Source: Acidimicrobiia bacterium (GTDB lineage Bacteria; Actinomycetota; Acidimicrobiia; Acidimicrobiales; Poriferisodalaceae). Taken from it: a DNA stretch of 35,458 bases. Below the pieces are notes generated by a model that made no database searches, was not told where the DNA came from, and saw only the letters and a program-made list of their open reading frames with translations. Every line of letters starts with the position of its first letter. The stretch's first letter is position 1. The stretch is taken from the NCBI GenBank assembly GCA_012960315.1, contig DUBN01000006.1:1-35458 (forward strand). The letters are read 5' to 3'. This document shows, in pieces, positions 1 through 24,266 of this stretch. The translations under genes and the position numbers were made by a program.

Positions 1-75
1 GAGGGTCTACGGTTCGCAATTCGTGAAGGTGGCCGCACTGTGGGTGCGGGTCGAGTCACCAAGATCCTCGAATAA
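1..75 (+). CDS. tuf: Elongation factor Tu, C-terminal end (partial)
   Basis: Reading from base 1 in frame 1 gives 24 codons ending at TAA 73-75. The translation contains [14 protein letters not shown] and ends in VTKILE, the nearly invariant C-terminus of EF-Tu (end of the third beta-barrel domain). EF-Tu is the cytosolic GTPase that delivers aminoacyl-tRNA to the ribosome. The 5' part lies outside the window. The stop is only 4 nt before the rpsJ start, so tuf and rpsJ are very likely on one transcript. Confidence 0.95.
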
Positions 76-79
76 CCTC

Positions 80-400
80 ATGGCTGCTTCACAGAGGATC
101 CGCATCCGCCTTAAGGCATACGACCACGACATCATCGACCAGAGCACTCAGAAAATTGTCGAAACCGCTCTTCGTACCCAAGCAACCATTAAAGGGCCAG
201 TCCCTTTACCGACAGAAAAACATCGGTACACAGTGGTGCGCTCGCCTCACAAAGACAAAGATTCGCGAGAACACTTCGAGATGCGGATCCACAAAAGACT
301 CATCGACATACTCGAGCCTTCACCCAAGACTGTCGATTCGCTACAACGACTGGAATTACCAGCCGGCGTCGATATCGAAATTAAAATCCAACAGAATTAA
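80..400 (+). CDS. rpsJ: 30S ribosomal protein S10
   Basis: This 106-residue protein starts [16 protein letters not shown] and contains [19 protein letters not shown] and [16 protein letters not shown], the core signatures of S10 (usual length about 102). S10 is a 30S head protein and, as NusE, also joins NusB in antitermination complexes. I chose ATG 80 because it lies 4 nt after the tuf stop and matches the family N-terminus. The frame is open further upstream (ATG 23), but that stretch overlaps tuf and has no family similarity. A long non-coding gap follows, which is unusual in this operon. Confidence 0.97.
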
Positions 401-621
401 ATCCCAGGTGCTTCAGGGTGGTGATTAGCCCTGAGCCCCGCTATCGTTTACCCTCCGCGCATCTCATATATTTGGATGCACGAACCGACGTCCGGCAAGG
501 CCGGCCCCAGGGCTGGAACCGGTCGGCACAACCCAATTTCTCGCTCCGCCGGCTTCGCCGAGCGGAGCGTTCGCGTGAACGGCGGCCGATCGGCCCCATC
601 TGGAAGAGGAAGACACCCGAC
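401..621 (+). promoter_or_regulatory. Structured rpsJ-rplC leader, candidate r-protein RNA element
   Basis: This 221-bp gap has several potential stem-loops. Stem 413-418/429-434 (TCAGGG/CCCTGA) follows rpsJ. Stem 459-463/475-479 is GCATC/GATGC. Stem 500-506/521-527 is GCCGGCC/GGTCGGC with one G-U pair, and competes with a small hairpin at 492-504. The strongest is 542-553/557-569, twelve pairs with one bulged A and a 3-nt loop. A 12-nt palindrome lies at 584-595. A purine-rich Shine-Dalgarno (GAAGAGGAAG, 603-612) precedes the rplC ATG. Other junctions in the superoperon are under 35 bp. An autoregulatory leader or attenuator is my inference; I do not recognise a named RNA family. Confidence 0.5.
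467..472 (+). promoter_or_regulatory. Possible -10 box upstream of rplC
   Basis: TATATT matches the sigma-70 type -10 consensus at five of six positions. It sits in the only AT-rich stretch of an otherwise GC-rich gap. No convincing -35 hexamer is visible 16-18 nt upstream. If used, it would give an rplC leader of roughly 140 nt containing the strongest hairpins. Confidence 0.3.
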
Positions 622-1254
622 ATGGCGAATAAGGCGATAGTCGCCATAAAAGTCGGTATGACCCAGCTCTGGGACGAGGACAATCGAGTTGTTCCCGTCA
701 CCATGCTGCAGGTCGAGCCATGTCGTGTGGTCCAGGTCAAAACCGATGAACGAGATGGTTACACCGCCGTCCAAGTCACCTTCGGCCAACGCGAAGCAAC
801 GAAGTTAAGTAAACCCGAAGCCGGACATTTTGATGCCGCCGGTGTTGAGCCGGGTCAACGCCTGGTTGAATTGCGGCTTGACGACGTCAGCGAAATTGAA
901 GTGGGACAAGAATTCGCGGCGGATGTTCTTGAAGCAGGCGAAAAAGTTGACGTAACCGCGGTATCCAAAGGCAAGGGCTTTGCTGGCGTAATGAAACGCC
1001 ACAACTTTGCCGGGCTAAAAGCCAGTCACGGCGTCCGCGGCCACCGAGCCCCCGGATCTATCGGTGCCTGTGCCACACCGTCGCGGGTTTTCAAAGGGAA
1101 AAAAATGCCGGGCCGTATGGGAGCAGAGAAAGTCACCACGTTGAACCTCACTGTTGTACAGGCAGATGCTGAGCGCGAAATCTTGCTCATTCGCGGTTCA
1201 GTGCCTGGCCCTAAAGGAGGCGTCGTTGTAGTCCGCGACGCCGTGAAGGGTTAA
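622..1254 (+). CDS. rplC: 50S ribosomal protein L3
   Basis: This 210-residue protein starts [20 protein letters not shown], where the L3 pattern of an early KxGMTxxW segment is clear. It also contains [29 protein letters not shown] and [11 protein letters not shown], the conserved L3 core and long loop that reaches the peptidyl-transferase centre. L3 binds 23S rRNA early in 50S assembly. The frame stays open back to GTG 418, but residues encoded before 622 are not L3-like and ATG 622 has a good Shine-Dalgarno. The gap to rplD is 2 nt. Confidence 0.97.
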
Positions 1255-19137: not shown

Positions 19138-20466
19138 ATGACATTGTCATTCGGCACCGACGGCGTTCGCGGTCCTACTCCGGAACTACTGAACAAACAC
19201 TTCGTTGCTTGTCTGGCGACAGCCGCAAGTGAAGTGCTGTCTACCGATCACTGGATTCTGGGACGCGATACCCGCGAGTCAGGGGCAGCTCTTTTACAAG
19301 CGATGGCTCAAGCTATAGCTGCGGGCGGAAAAATTGTCGTCGACGCTGGAGTGGTCCCCACACCCACCGTGGCCTACCTCTCTAACGCAGAGAACTGCGC
19401 AGGAATTGTGATATCGGCCTCCCATAATCCATGGAGTGACAACGGCGTGAAGATCTTTGCCCCAGGGGGTCGCAAACTTCACGATCACGAACAAGCAGCC
19501 ATCGAAAATCGGTTTGCTGCTCTAATCGAAGAGCCCGCCACGCCTATCGATGAGCCACGCAGGGTTGTTACTGAACACCCGGACCCGCTGCAACCTTGGG
19601 TCGCATCAATCGAGGACGCCATAGAAAAAAGAAGTTTGGAAGGTCTTCACATTGTTGTTGATTGCGCAAACGGTGCGGCATCCCATGTTGCTGAACCCCT
19701 CTTTAGGCAACTTGGTGCGCGTGTCGAAGTTATCCACGCCTCACCCGACGGTCGCAATATCAACCAAAACTGTGGATCAACCCACCCATCGATCGTGAGT
19801 GAAGCAGTGTTGGCGAAACAAGCTGACCTAGGGCTAGCTCTAGACGGAGATGCTGATCGGCTCATAGCTGTGGCATCAGATGGCACGATCATTGACGGCG
19901 ACCGACAACTCTGTTTATTCGCCAAAGATTTCGTTCAACGAAACCAACTCACCAACCGAAGCGTTGTTGCCACGGTGATGTCGAACCTCGGGCTGCGACA
20001 AGCCTTAGAACAAGTCGACATCACAATGATCGAAGTGCCGGTAGGTGATCGCAACGTACTGGCCCAACTTGACGCAGGAGCCGCCATTCTCGGAGGTGAA
20101 CAGTCTGGTCACCTTATATTTCGACAACACGCCACCACAGGCGACGGCTTACTCACCGGAGCGTTATTAGCTGACCTGGTACTTCGCTCAGGAAGAAAAA
20201 GTTCAGACATCGCTGGCGAAACCATGCACCAGTTTCCCCAAATACTCATCAATATTCCCGTCCAATCAAACCCGGCTCAGTTACCTGACCGCTTCAGCGA
20301 AGAAATCGTTGGAGTTGAAACTCGACTCGGTGACGCCGGTCGAGTTCTCGTACGTGCAAGTGGCACCGAACCCGTCATTCGGATCATGGTGGAAGCAGCC
20401 GAAGAGGTCACAGCACAACGCGAAGCTGACTATCTAGCTGACATCATTAAACGCGCTGCGAACTAA
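19138..20466 (+). CDS. glmM: Phosphoglucosamine mutase
   Basis: This 442-residue enzyme converts glucosamine-6-phosphate to glucosamine-1-phosphate for UDP-GlcNAc synthesis. It starts FGTDGVRG, the active-site phosphoserine is in VISASHNPWSDNG (Ser95), the metal loop is LALDGDADRLIAVA, the sugar-binding loop is LGGEQSGHLIF, and the phosphate-binding loop is RASGTEPVIRIMVEA. A good AAGGAG Shine-Dalgarno precedes ATG 19138. The next gene is a GlmS-like protein, the enzyme one step earlier in the pathway. Confidence 0.96.
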   Translation: MTLSFGTDGVRGPTPELLNKHFVACLATAASEVLSTDHWILGRDTRESGAALLQAMAQAIAAGGKIVVDAGVVPTPTVAYLSNAENCAGIVISASHNPWSDNGVKIFAPGGRKLHDHEQAAIENRFAALIEEPATPIDEPRRVVTEHPDPLQPWVASIEDAIEKRSLEGLHIVVDCANGAASHVAEPLFRQLGARVEVIHASPDGRNINQNCGSTHPSIVSEAVLAKQADLGLALDGDADRLIAVASDGTIIDGDRQLCLFAKDFVQRNQLTNRSVVATVMSNLGLRQALEQVDITMIEVPVGDRNVLAQLDAGAAILGGEQSGHLIFRQHATTGDGLLTGALLADLVLRSGRKSSDIAGETMHQFPQILINIPVQSNPAQLPDRFSEEIVGVETRLGDAGRVLVRASGTEPVIRIMVEAAEEVTAQREADYLADIIKRAAN

Positions 20467-20508: not shown

Positions 20509-23500
20509 ATGTGCGGCATCATCGCCGTCCTTCGCGGACCAGATAACGGATCGGTGCTTAGAGCCGACGAGGTCCTCGCGCGGCTAGGCATAGCCGTCGA
20601 GTCGCTTCTCTCAGCAACCGGCGAGCTGGCCCTCATCGCCGCGAAAACCAGAGAAGCCGCCGACCATCTTTCGGCGATAGACCAAGACCTGCGGACCCTG
20701 CCGGGGATGCGGTTGCTGGTCTTCGACCGACCCACAGCTCTCGCCATCGCGGGCGAGATAGAACGAGCCCGGGGCGCACTCGCAAATGTCGACAGTCATC
20801 TTGACCAACTAACTGTCGACGCAGAAGACCTGAACTCAGGCCTCGTCGAAGTTCGCGACGCGTTATGGGCAATAGAACGAGATCGGCTGCGTAACGCAGA
20901 AGCGATCATCGATCTGGCCCAGGGTGCGCCGCAGTCGAAGGCCTTACCCGGATTGATGTCTATCCAGACCGCTCTTTCAGCCATCGATCGACTCGAAGTT
21001 CGCGGACGCGATTCTGCCGGCCTACAAATTTTCGTTGCCAACCACGGGCTTCCCGACAAAGCACTCCAAGGAGCCCGCTTCAACGATCCGGTCCTACGGT
21101 CAGGAGCGACACGCAACCTTGGTGAGCACATCGCCTTCGTATATAAGAACGCCGCCGAAATTGGTGACCTCGGTGACAACACCGACGCTCTGAGAACGGT
21201 CATCCGCTCCGATGAACTTCTCCACCAGGCGCTCGCTGGATCGGAATCGGAAGTCATTGTCCTGGGACACACCCGCTGGGCCAGCGTCGGTGTCATCTCC
21301 GAGCCAAACGCCCACCCCCTGGACTCCCACGAGCTAGGACATCCCAACCACACATATGTAGCGGCAGTGCTCAACGGCGATATCGACAACTACGCAGACC
21401 TCATCGAACTTCACGATGTCGAAGTCGCTCCAGAAATTACAACAGACGCCAAGATCGTCCCGACGCTCCTCAGTAGAAAGCTGGCGACGGGCTCTGAAAA
21501 CATCGAGTCTTTTCGAACCACCGTCTCGGCGTTTGAAGGTTCAATGGCCATCGCAAGTCACTGCGCAGATGAACCACAGAAGTTGTCACTAGCGTTACGC
21601 GGAAGTGGCCAGGCCATCTACGTTGGTATCGCTGACAACGCATACGTAGTGGCCAGCGAACCCTACGGTGTGGTTGAAGACACTGCTCAATGGTTACGCA
21701 TGGATGGCGAAACTCCTGCAGATCCCGAACAGCCCATCTCAACAGCTGGGCAGATCCTCGAACTGGATGGATCACTCGCTGGGACCATCGAAGGGATCAC
21801 CCGCCTCGCCTACGACGGTACGAAACTTCCCATCCTTCAAGATGAGATCGCAAGGGCAGACATCACAACTCGTGATATCGACCGAGGCGACGCACCCCAC
21901 TACCTACTCAAAGAAATCGAAGAAGCACCGCAATCAGTCCACAAAACCCTCCGCGGACGCATTACCGAAGTTGAGGGGAAGCTCCAGGTGCGTCTTGGGT
22001 CCGACGTCATCCCGCACAGCGTCGAACGAGCGCTGGTAGCTAAGACGATTCGACGAGTAATTGCCATCGGTCAGGGAACAGCTGCCGTTGCAGCGCGCGC
22101 CATCCCCCAATTTCTTACTCCACTGATAAAGAAAACGGAACTCATCGTTGACGCTCAACTCGCCACCGAACTCAGCGGGTTCTCTATGGCCGACGACATG
22201 TCGGACACCTTGGTCATTGCTGTCAGCCAGTCAGGCACCACCACCGACACCAATCGCACCGTTGACCTCGTCCGCCAGCGGGGAGGCCACGTAATAGCCA
22301 TCGTCAACCGCCGCGGCAGCGACCTGACAGATAAAGCCGACGGTGTTTTGTACACATCTGACGGTCGAGACGTTGAAATGTCCGTCGCATCCACCAAGGC
22401 GTTTTATGCCCAAGTGGTTGCCGCAGTACTGCTCAGCAGCGCCCTGGCCGACCTCATTGACGCAGATCGAGACCGAACTGGCATCGTTGAGGCACTCCGC
22501 AGGCTCCCCGACGCAATGCGACAAGTAATAGCTACTCGCCCCGCCATAGCTGAAGCTGCTCAACGACACGCACCACAAAAACGTTATTGGGCTGTCGTGG
22601 GAAACGGGCCGAACCGAATCGCAGCAAACGAAATCAGAATCAAGCTGTCAGAGCTTTGCTACAAAGCCATCCCTGAAGACGGAACTGAAGACAAAAAACA
22701 CATAGATCTGTCCTCTGAACCACTCATTTTTGTTTGCGCAACTGGACTCAGTGGATCAAACCTGGACGACGTCGCCAAAGAAGTCGCGATCTACCGAGCC
22801 CACAAAGCAACCGCCATCGTCGTCGCAAACGAAAATGAGGCTCGTTTCGGAGCCGCAACTGAACTTCTAACAGTTCCTCATCTCCACACGTCACTTGATT
22901 TCATTCTGGCAACCGTCGTCGGCCATATCTTCGGCTACGAAGCAGCCCTCGCAATTGACGCCCAGGCACTGCCGCTAAGAGAAATGCGGGCCAGTCTTGA
23001 AAACACCATCGCGGATGGAGTACTTGTTGACGGCGCTTTTGAACAACTGCAAGATGAACTTCTTGCACCAGGTCACCGCTTTCTCGATGGTCTACGTAGC
23101 GGCGCCTACGACGGACATCTCGAAGCCAGCACAGCTGCAAAGCTTGTCACCATTTTGAGATATGGCACTGGAGTAGCGTCCCTCGACAGTTATCAGATGG
23201 AAATTGGAAAAGTAGGACGACCAGGAGTCGTCGTCGACGACCTCAACGCAGCACTGACCAAAGCCATCGACGAACTCACCCGACCCGTAGATGCAATCAA
23301 ACATCAAGCCAAGACCGTCACCGTAGGGGTCTCACGCTCCGATGAAAGCTTGCTGATGTCTGATCTAGCCAAGGCGACTCTCAACGCGGGCACACCACGA
23401 GACCGGCTCTCGTATCGGGAACTGCGAACATTGGCAGCTTTGGATCCAGCCGTGACGGAAATCATAGGTTGGACTCGATACCGAATCGAAGGTGACGTTG

Positions 23501-23901
23501 AACACGACGCCACCATCCAGGTAGTTGATCGCGGAGGGATAGCGACAGGTATCACATCTAGAACCGATGCCAACCCAACGTTGAGAGGTGGCAAACACCG
23601 CGCAGCTTTCGAACGAGAAATCATGGTCGGCGTTGGCAGCGACGGGCGAAGCGTCATTCATATACCCGAAGTCAAAGACAACCAAACGACGGGCCTAACA
23701 CTTCTCCACTGTCGGTTTCATGAACGACTCCCCACAACAACCATTCGCGCCGTCATGCAGGGGTACCGAGGAAGATATGGCGCTCTCAAAGACGCCGTTA
23801 CAGAGTCCCGCCCCACCTTTCGTGATGACATCCTCGCGACTTTGGACGTGGTGGAACTACTCACCCGTCCCGTCTACTCACTCGCGGAGCATTGGACATG
23901 A
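20509..23901 (+). CDS. glmS: Giant GlmS-like glutamine-fructose-6-phosphate aminotransferase
   Basis: The protein is 1130 residues; ordinary GlmS is about 610. MCGI at the start gives the Cys2 nucleophile of class II glutamine amidotransferases. After an extra helical segment (about 16-148) the domain resumes with RGRDSAG (165-171), GHTRWA (253-258) and NGDIDNY (290-295). The first sugar-isomerase domain has SQSGTTTDT (573-581) and VASTKAFYAQ (626-635). The second (about 690-815) keeps likely equivalents of E. coli E488 and H504 (E715, H731). AKTVTV (934-939) holds the probable K603 equivalent (K935) after a further insert (about 825-925). About 185 residues follow. Retained catalytic positions and the glmM neighbour suggest glucosamine-6-phosphate synthesis. 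The stop overlaps acpS by 4 nt. Confidence 0.85.
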   Translation: MCGIIAVLRGPDNGSVLRADEVLARLGIAVESLLSATGELALIAAKTREAADHLSAIDQDLRTLPGMRLLVFDRPTALAIAGEIERARGALANVDSHLDQLTVDAEDLNSGLVEVRDALWAIERDRLRNAEAIIDLAQGAPQSKALPGLMSIQTALSAIDRLEVRGRDSAGLQIFVANHGLPDKALQGARFNDPVLRSGATRNLGEHIAFVYKNAAEIGDLGDNTDALRTVIRSDELLHQALAGSESEVIVLGHTRWASVGVISEPNAHPLDSHELGHPNHTYVAAVLNGDIDNYADLIELHDVEVAPEITTDAKIVPTLLSRKLATGSENIESFRTTVSAFEGSMAIASHCADEPQKLSLALRGSGQAIYVGIADNAYVVASEPYGVVEDTAQWLRMDGETPADPEQPISTAGQILELDGSLAGTIEGITRLAYDGTKLPILQDEIARADITTRDIDRGDAPHYLLKEIEEAPQSVHKTLRGRITEVEGKLQVRLGSDVIPHSVERALVAKTIRRVIAIGQGTAAVAARAIPQFLTPLIKKTELIVDAQLATELSGFSMADDMSDTLVIAVSQSGTTTDTNRTVDLVRQRGGHVIAIVNRRGSDLTDKADGVLYTSDGRDVEMSVASTKAFYAQVVAAVLLSSALADLIDADRDRTGIVEALRRLPDAMRQVIATRPAIAEAAQRHAPQKRYWAVVGNGPNRIAANEIRIKLSELCYKAIPEDGTEDKKHIDLSSEPLIFVCATGLSGSNLDDVAKEVAIYRAHKATAIVVANENEARFGAATELLTVPHLHTSLDFILATVVGHIFGYEAALAIDAQALPLREMRASLENTIADGVLVDGAFEQLQDELLAPGHRFLDGLRSGAYDGHLEASTAAKLVTILRYGTGVASLDSYQMEIGKVGRPGVVVDDLNAALTKAIDELTRPVDAIKHQAKTVTVGVSRSDESLLMSDLAKATLNAGTPRDRLSYRELRTLAALDPAVTEIIGWTRYRIEGDVEHDATIQVVDRGGIATGITSRTDANPTLRGGKHRAAFEREIMVGVGSDGRSVIHIPEVKDNQTTGLTLLHCRFHERLPTTTIRAVMQGYRGRYGALKDAVTESRPTFRDDILATLDVVELLTRPVYSLAEHWT

Positions 23902-24266
23902 CGCTCGGTATCGGTATCGACCTCGTCGATGTTCAACGATTTCGCAAAGTCCTCCAGAGGCGAGAAAAAATTGGTAGCCGGCTGTTCACGGACAACGAAC
24001 TTTCCTACTGTCACACAGTCGTTGACCCCGCGGAGCGAATGGCCGTTCGCTTCGCCGCTAAAGAAGCAGTGATGAAAGCCCTTGGGGTTGGGCTAGGGAG
24101 CGTACGTTTCCGCGAAATAGAAGTCACTAAAGACCCGTCAGGGCGTCCCAGCCTCGTGCTCCACGGGGCTGCCGCACAACTCGCAGCCGACACAGGCGTT
24201 CGCCAATGGCACATCTCACTCAGCCACACTGCTTCGGTGGCCGAGGCGTTCGTCATCGCGGAGTAA
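23898..24266 (+). CDS. acpS: Holo-[acyl-carrier-protein] synthase
   Basis: From ATG 23898 the protein is 122 residues: MTLGIGIDLVDVQRFRKVL, with the magnesium-binding Asp in GIDLV, then RFAAKEAVMKALGVGLG (the conserved F-x-x-KEA motif) and WHISLSHTASVAEAFVIAE. It transfers 4'-phosphopantetheine from CoA to acyl carrier protein. ATG 23898 overlaps the upstream stop as ATGA; a TTG at 23892 is in frame but less likely. Confidence 0.95.
   Translation: MTLGIGIDLVDVQRFRKVLQRREKIGSRLFTDNELSYCHTVVDPAERMAVRFAAKEAVMKALGVGLGSVRFREIEVTKDPSGRPSLVLHGAAAQLAADTGVRQWHISLSHTASVAEAFVIAE

Follow-up and report, generated by a model that had tools for sequence, protein, structure and literature searches.

The subject of this analysis is a probable gene for glucosamine-6-phosphate (GlcN6P) synthase, glmS, on contig DUBN01000006.1 of an Acidimicrobiia bacterium (GenBank assembly GCA_012960315.1). 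The stretch analysed, positions 1 to 35,458 of the forward strand, is called the window throughout. The gene is greatly enlarged, and we refer to its product as the giant GlmS. An original prediction, made from the sequence of the window, had read the product as a GlmS carrying three added segments and had suggested that it might be a new regulatory or oligomeric form, perhaps specific to its lineage.

Anatomy of the giant enzyme

The motifs MCGI, RGRDSAG, GHTRWA, NGDIDNY, SQSGTT, VASTKAF and AKTVTV occur in the order that had been claimed for them, within one open frame of 1130 codons, and the frame divides into the following parts.

20509..23901, forward strand: giant glmS; ATG start, 1130 codons, no internal stop, product of 1130 amino acids
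20509..20535, forward strand: strand 1 with the nucleophile cysteine, residues 1-9 (C2 = Cys1; strand at 3-9 in the model)
20536..20943, forward strand: insert 1, about 130 residues within 10-145; a gap relative to canonical GlmS, with helices at 19-136 in the model
20944..21867, forward strand: rest of the class II glutaminase domain, residues 146-453 (superposition on 1xff_B; Pfam GATase_6)
21868..22962, forward strand: the two SIS domains of the isomerase, residues 454-818 (superposition on 7dnr_A; Pfam SIS on the first only)
22963..23292, forward strand: insert 2, a helical bundle, residues 819-928, linking the second SIS domain to the catalytic tail (gap relative to canonical GlmS; helices in the model)
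23293..23334, forward strand: catalytic tail, residues 929-942 (K935 = K603), internal and not at the C-terminus
23335..23898, forward strand: added C-terminal alpha/beta domain, residues 943-1130, weakly PAS/GAF-like and missing in one relative, G291

The landmarks of the glutaminase domain are the R-loop (R165-G171), the Q-loop region (H254-S264), N289 with G290, and D313; those of the SIS part are S573, Q574, S575, T578, K712, E715 and H731. In canonical GlmS the tail bearing K603 is the free C-terminus.

As a reference set we used 36 canonical GlmS rows (35 distinct). Actinomycetota contributed 27 of them, all except one belonging to the window's class, and the other 9 come from elsewhere. 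Aligned with these, the giant has the three insertions where they had been placed: strand 1 and the RGRDSAG helix are separated by about 130 extra residues, the second SIS domain is followed by about 105 before the lysine tail begins, and about 190 come after that tail. Two smaller expansions had escaped the original prediction: RGRDSAG and HTRWA stand about 40 residues further apart, and region 397-440 is longer by about 20. Matches to known families fall on the core: Pfam gives SIS (515-642, a single copy) and GATase_6 (248-384) above cut-off, the alignments to the NCBIfam glmS models span 154-816 and 240-815, and the GlmS/GFAT and related SIS entries found by sequence search of the PDB match the core only (best E 7e-24). 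Rfam gives no match at gathering scores in the window, and thus no known glmS ribozyme.

An AlphaFold2 model of the full protein, with 57 homologues as input, has a mean predicted local distance difference test score (pLDDT) of 87.5 and a predicted template modelling score (pTM) of 0.79. Its glutaminase part (2..453) superposes on E. coli 1xff_B over 234 residues with a root-mean-square deviation (rmsd) of 1.7 and Z 30.4, and in the VIA structure comparison its isomerase part (457..818) superposes on 7dnr_A over 342 residues (rmsd 2.5, Z 38.7). The superposition on full-length E. coli GlmS that had been proposed as a check shows 586 residues of the whole model matching 2j6h_A, at Z 39.5 and rmsd 4.5, the separate domains giving rmsd values of 1.7-2.9. 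Neither for the full model nor for a separately modelled fragment (residues 816-1130) do the matches listed by VIA assign a clear fold to insert 1, which was modelled only as part of the whole protein; this is no proof of a new fold.

In the E. coli enzyme the cysteine hydrolyses glutamine, Lys603 binds the sugar, and E488 and H504 act as acid and base. The equivalences that had been drawn by eye for these residues are exact (C2 for Cys1, E715 for E488, H731 for H504, K935 for K603). To compare residues across the family we took Enterobacter GlmS in E. coli numbering as reference and set 24 giants against the 36 canonical rows. All 24 retain C1, R26, R73, W74, H86, N98, G99, D123, G301, S347, Q348, S349, T352, V399, S401, K403, K485, E488, H504, A602 and K603. 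Across the wider set of 87 giants described below, no substitution occurs at the catalytic sites checked, apart from two sites that each have one row with X. The N-terminal nucleophile of the GlmS/GFAT superfamily, C2, is kept in 87/87, the model of the window's protein has the glutaminase fold, and the SQSG, VASTK, E488, H504 and K603 equivalents of the double SIS isomerase are all present. Architecture and key catalytic residues are likewise shared by all 57 aligned homologues. The claim of a lineage-wide GlmS form with intact catalytic residues is thus upheld by conservation in both sets of giants.

Distribution, locus and phylogeny

Loci were kept as near-full-length giants if their match spanned residue 1 to at least 1127; this was the case for 102 of 110 loci, which yield 87 distinct sequences, the window's included. 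The nearest relative (L002) is 94.7% identical, and the same protein recurs in another collection (L031). From these loci we built an alignment of 57 rows, A1, comprising the window, ten hand-picked loci and L031-L110, thinned to less than 80% mutual identity and with rows containing X excluded. Of its rows, 56 (L066 excluded) form A2, the C-terminal profile; two further alignments, A3 and A5, have 42 rows. A stretch of 107 extra residues in L011 was considered as an intein and rejected, because its X residues come from a run of N, that is, from missing or masked sequence.

If the giant is the GlmS of its organism, it matters whether a normal enzyme stands beside it. No second, normal GlmS was found in the window's own genome (96.55% complete), where the glmS model has one match; such a copy, together with isomerase residues out of place, is what the original prediction had named as counting against it, and the search for one came out in its favour. 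At E ≤0.01 this genome has two places with SIS domains, one of them the giant and the other a SIS protein of 343 residues, and it also encodes a GlmU-like protein scoring 347 bits against a cut-off of 366.85.

The same exclusivity is seen in the class sample. In a sample of 296 class genomes the A2 profile finds the giant in 115, with G291 included through its match to the bundle and tail, and TIGR01135 finds 274 at E ≤1e-40, 159 of them over cut-off. Counting as canonical those genomes whose best TIGR01135 match has E <1e-80, as assigned by eye from the match table, we find 162 genomes with the canonical enzyme, 115 with the giant, none with both and 19 with neither. The last group includes G149, with a 152-residue frame that corresponds to the last part of the canonical model, and G247, which has a fragment. 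A sample of 396 genomes from the phylum, overlapping the class sample, contains 31 with the giant, including 9 that lie outside the class; of these nine, G384 alone also has a canonical gene over cut-off (L193, L205), and it is possibly a mixed bin (6.5 Mb, 5% contamination).

Most genomes have a single A2 match, the second matches in G170, G223 and G344 being fragments. G253 (74% complete) has two full matches, to giant genes (L302 and L303) that are each cut by a contig end, and which represent either two copies or two strains. In G086, assembled as a single contig, the giant is found at E 6.7e-129 in a frame of 1139 residues, and the one TIGR01135 match, at E 6.3e-64, lies in the range of giants. 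Three side observations concern single genomes or loci. G234 (98% complete, of family f32 and the same genus as G291) has neither a giant nor a GlmS match at E ≤1e-40; its single weak match to a GlmS model (E 3.5e-26, positions 1-221) covers the glutaminase part only, so that GlmS is missing or unassembled there. The giant gene of the two-contig genome G047 (L301) is split over two frames near residue 735, by sequencing error or a real break. Two canonical proteins of 640 and 625 residues (L181, L182) may, to judge from their N-termini, have small insertions close to strand 1, where insert 1 lies in the giants.

We found no description of this form: the giant was not recognised among the open-licence matches listed on GlmS in these bacteria or on the GlmS tail, as judged by title and start of abstract, and a term search of the main text of a paper on signature indels of Acidimicrobiia (PMC5962788) gave 0 occurrences of GlmS, glucosamine or SIS.

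Two neighbouring genes belong to a recurrent gene order.

19138..20466, forward strand: glmM, phosphoglucosamine mutase, the next step of the pathway (TIGR01455 E 1e-132; 443 bits, just below the cut-off of 447.55)
23892..24266, forward strand: acpS, sharing 10 bases (23892-23901) with the end of giant glmS if a TTG start is used

The predicted TTG start of acpS would permit translational coupling with the giant glmS. Among 80 named giant loci, many of them cut by contig ends, the order is glmM-glmS-acpS-nnrD in 54, glmM-glmS-acpS in 10, glmM-glmS-nnrD in 5, glmM-glmS in 4, glmS-acpS-nnrD in 6 and glmS alone in 1; glmM thus lies upstream in 73/80. For comparison we took 20 canonical loci from the same order and class, chosen for spread over families. 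Here glmM lies upstream within about 1 kb in 14, with acpS downstream in 12 of those 14 (2-3 kb off in L173 and L174); in another locus (L177) glmM is about 5 kb away and acpS has no match. The giant usually occupies the place of the canonical glmS in sister lineages.

Outside the class the setting is different. The fetched stretches around the giants of family f105 (L195-L199) and around one of family f82 contain none of glmM, acpS and nnrD, and the five f105 genomes have no canonical GlmS over cut-off; the f105 giants look like a transfer to a new place. For a tree we chose by hand 24 giants, 27 canonical rows from Actinomycetota (26 distinct) and 9 outgroups; it was computed from 601 shared columns under an 80% filling rule, which removes columns that giants alone fill. 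All 24 giants fall into one clade with support 100/100. Rows from f75, f82 and f105 nest among the giants of Acidimicrobiia, some forks being modestly supported, and this nesting would fit transfer out of the class. Since its root cannot be fixed, the tree is compatible both with a foreign glmS having replaced the resident gene and with rapid change in place.

The ammonia gate and the added parts

Relative to canonical GlmS the giants carry fixed changes around the gate between the two active sites. The changes Y28R, Y25V, C300Q, N600H and L601Q occur in 24/24 giants and 0/36 canonical rows, and H77, which is H in 36/36 canonical rows, is V, I or M in 24/24 giants. The gate residues Y28, H77 and L601 are thus all three present in every canonical row, while not one of the three is found in any of the 24 giants. 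In the numbering of the giant, R167 stands for Tyr28, V, I or M for His77, H932 for Asn600 and Q933 for Leu601. The wider set agrees: R167, Q522 and Q933 are found in 87/87 giants, while position 260 has V in 63 of them and I in the other 24. To regard Y28, H77 and L601 as traits that define the glmS equivalog is our own reading and not that of NCBIfam.

The likely importance of these positions can be gauged from GFAT2. In an excerpt of a study of that enzyme (PMC7948480), the equivalent of W74 contacts Tyr35, Arg33, Leu675 and Ala676, and in GlmS the seal against ammonia loss is said to be a hydrophobic channel that runs between W74 and the C-tail. By our own mapping these four residues correspond to Y28, R26, L601 and A602. 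Judged from the alignments, the chemistry appears to be kept and the gate rebuilt as a set, and with moderate confidence we expect the rebuilt gate to alter channelling.

The original prediction had instead located an effect on glutamine access or ammonia channelling in insert 1. Its description of the insert as helical stands, helices being modelled at high confidence over 19-136. The fixed changes that could affect channelling sit in the gate loops and not in the insert. A helix at 143-162 precedes R165 in the model, and because insert 1 joins the far end of this helix, which leads to the R-loop, direct blocking of the glutamine site by the insert seems less likely.

Conservation separates the added parts from one another. 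Over the 87 sequences the mean column entropy is 0.03 bits in the catalytic tail, 1.01 in the SIS part, 1.23 in the C-terminal domain, 1.25 in the glutaminase part (146-453), 1.46 in the bundle and 2.22 in insert 1. Insert 1, the least conserved part, is therefore the less likely regulator; within it only the final long helix (106-136) is well conserved, at 1.41 bits. In the C-terminal domain R964, D965, R1018, K1029, D1045 and R1047 are invariant in 57/57.

One relative offers a natural dissection. G291, a genome of the same order (family f32, 95% complete), has a frame of 1051 residues (L299, 565-3720) that is 45% identical to residues 1-943 of the window's protein and has its stop immediately behind HQAKTVTVGISRR, with an nnrD-like gene beginning 17 bases further on. 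The 6.2 kb fetched contain no significant match to residues 943-1130 and no acpS match between glmS and nnrD. Its contig continues beyond the gene, so that the short form is not due to a contig end, in contrast to the copy in G320, which is cut by one. G291 keeps the gate motifs RGRDSAG, HTRWASVG and HQAKTVTV and the other two inserts, its A2 match covering positions 1-130, and a genome of the same genus (G301) has the full form. This pattern suggests loss of the C-terminal domain in one lineage, and hence a separable module without which the enzyme apparently manages.

Interpretation and comparison with known systems

We conclude that the giant is most probably the organism's only GlcN6P synthase: a diverged, double-size GlmS at the canonical place, with standard chemistry most likely, changed coupling and possibly a sensing add-on. 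We would give this reading a probability of about 0.8. Its parts differ in strength. The sequence data themselves establish the architecture, the conserved residues, the exclusivity, the locus and the separable nature of the C-terminal domain. There is a strong case from the retained residues that the giant is catalytically active; the C-terminal domain may, more weakly, sense a ligand or partner, and a regulatory or oligomeric role of the additions is possible.

On this reading Cys2 would hydrolyse glutamine and the ammonia would pass to the SIS isomerase, where the opened sugar would be bound by Lys935, with E715 and H731 serving as acid and base groups. The rebuilt gate between the two sites would change their coupling. 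The helical bundle runs, in the model, into the catalytic tail, and the C-terminal domain follows directly after it; on sensing a ligand or partner this domain might move and pull on the tail segment that forms the sugar site and the channel seal, so that sugar binding and ammonia sealing would both be modulated. The low-confidence tail at 929-942 would fit a mobile segment, bearing in mind that low confidence is no proof of mobility.

Several observations weigh against this reading, or against parts of it. The giant does not reach the curated cut-offs, scoring 224.2 against 418.05 bits for TIGR01135 and 238.7 against 381 bits for PRK00331, and is therefore not filed as a member of the equivalog. 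The pieces of the stem that joins the giants to canonical GlmS measure 4.92 and 3.43 changes per column, a very long branch that leaves room for a changed substrate. Within the K935 tail (929-942) and the segment before H731 (723-728) the full model has places with pLDDT below 50, so that the model does not establish their reach to the active site. Finally, G291 keeps the gate while lacking the C-terminal domain, which means that gate and domain are not strictly tied.

The likeness of the C-terminal domain to sensor domains also falls among these points. The model of fragment 816-1130 has pLDDT 93.1 and pTM 0.63. Foldseek found no match for the C-terminal fragment at E ≤1e-3, the best being a GAF domain entry at E 3.7e-3, followed by chemoreceptor and kinase sensor domains and a large glutamate dehydrogenase, all above that threshold. 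The best VIA match of the domain, Z 8.8 over 156 aligned residues of 7jsr_A (174..357; rmsd 4.5), is weak; many GAF and sensor-domain entries reach Z 6-7 (6.3-8.8 overall for large glutamate dehydrogenase, GAF, chemoreceptor and kinase sensor entries), the helical part of the fragment matches unrelated bundles at Z about 8, and Z values near 8 are common by chance. Sequence comparison adds no support. A relation to the PAS region of the large glutamate dehydrogenases (L-GDHs) was rejected at hhalign probabilities of 0.3 (three L-GDHs) and 0.1 (a 50-row alignment). Two PDB profile matches of the C-terminal part, at E 0.75 and 0.99, were dismissed as chance. Pfam at E ≤1 gave the C-terminal parts of 56 members no PAS or GAF match among the families listed, only scattered matches without a shared family, the best at E 0.0048 in one member. 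The model suggests, weakly, that the domain is PAS/GAF-like. As an aside, in a glutamate dehydrogenase of Acidimicrobiia (L239) Pfam matches the ACT, helical-motif, catalytic and C-terminal parts and leaves the expected PAS-type stretch, 197-368, unmatched between ACT1 and HM1.

The alternative that survives best accepts the giant as GlmS and takes the additions to be purely structural, serving oligomer assembly or stability without ligand sensing; we regard this as a serious possibility that falls somewhat short of even odds. Insert 1 and the helical bundle resemble packing elements, insert 1 varies freely, no ligand-binding family matches any added part, and the G291 relative does without the C-terminal domain. 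On the other side, this domain is nearly as conserved as the catalytic parts and has many invariant charged residues, which we judge to be more than packing usually needs.

At the opposite extreme, the giants could form a new regulatory class in which the tail is clamped between the bundle and a separable ligand-sensing domain, and in which the gate has been rebuilt (Y28R, loss of H77, L601Q) so that both sites switch together; such a class would have taken over from canonical GlmS at its locus in many Acidimicrobiia and spread to a few further families of Actinomycetota. We consider this fuller proposal rather unlikely, its probability being lowered by the gate that G291 retains without the domain.

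A change of substrate, by which a GlmS-family amidotransferase would aminate a different sugar phosphate and GlcN6P would be made by another route, seems improbable to us. The large divergence from canonical GlmS, the scores below the model cut-offs and the presence of Q and A at the C300 and S303 positions in 24/24 giants speak for it; yet alanine at S303 is also found in 8/27 actinomycetotal and 5/9 other canonical rows, no other GlmS was found in the nearly complete genome, glmM adjoins the gene in a locus shared with the canonical glmS of sister lineages, and the two forms exclude each other (115 giant, 162 canonical, 0 both). That the long frame is an artefact of assembly or binning, or a fusion in one genome, is refuted by the 87 distinct sequences and by the many separate metagenome-assembled genome projects; nothing in the window suggests it, although a few relatives (G047, G253, G320) do have broken or cut copies.

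The preferred reading, a diverged GlmS with changed coupling, may now be set beside known systems. With bacterial GlmS of the E. coli type (2j6h, 1jxa, 1moq, 1xff) the giant shares the class II glutaminase, the double SIS isomerase, the catalytic residues and, in sister lineages, the locus by glmM. It differs in length (1130 residues against about 608), through three large and two smaller additions; in the replacement of Y28, H77, N600, L601 and Y25; in its internal tail; and in an identity of only about 25-30%.

Eukaryotic GFAT (human GFAT1; 6svq, 6r4j) has the same core fold, 6svq_B matching with Z 40.4 over 592 residues (rmsd 4.5), and it too bears an added segment relative to bacterial GlmS. 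Feedback by UDP-N-acetylglucosamine is a property of the eukaryotic enzyme. The human addition is given, in the same excerpt on GFAT2 (PMC7948480), as an internal sequence of 46 residues, K211-V256. The additions of the giant are larger and, on our reading of the alignment, elsewhere.

The large glutamate dehydrogenase L-GDH180 (7jsr) provides, in its N-terminal ACT/PAS segment, the best structural match of the giant's C-terminal domain; it is an enzyme of nitrogen metabolism enlarged by putative sensor domains, according to an excerpt of PMC8175468. The parallel differs in that no sequence profile supports a relation between the two in the comparisons made, and the window's genome has no L-GDH at E ≤1e-50.

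The giant is, then, a known enzyme in a variant form that the whole family shares and that, in the class sample, never occurs together with the normal one. The original prediction was correct in its observations and for the larger part in what it surmised; the remodelled gate had escaped it. The committed reaction in making amino sugars for the cell wall is catalysed by GlmS, which also serves as a textbook example of ammonia channelling. Curated cut-offs would miss the enzyme here and likely in other giant-bearing genomes as well. The giants constitute a natural experiment in which the catalytic residues are kept and several gate residues, each invariant across the 36 canonical rows, have been replaced together, with G291 as a natural control lacking the C-terminal domain; they make it testable which features of the gate channelling needs.

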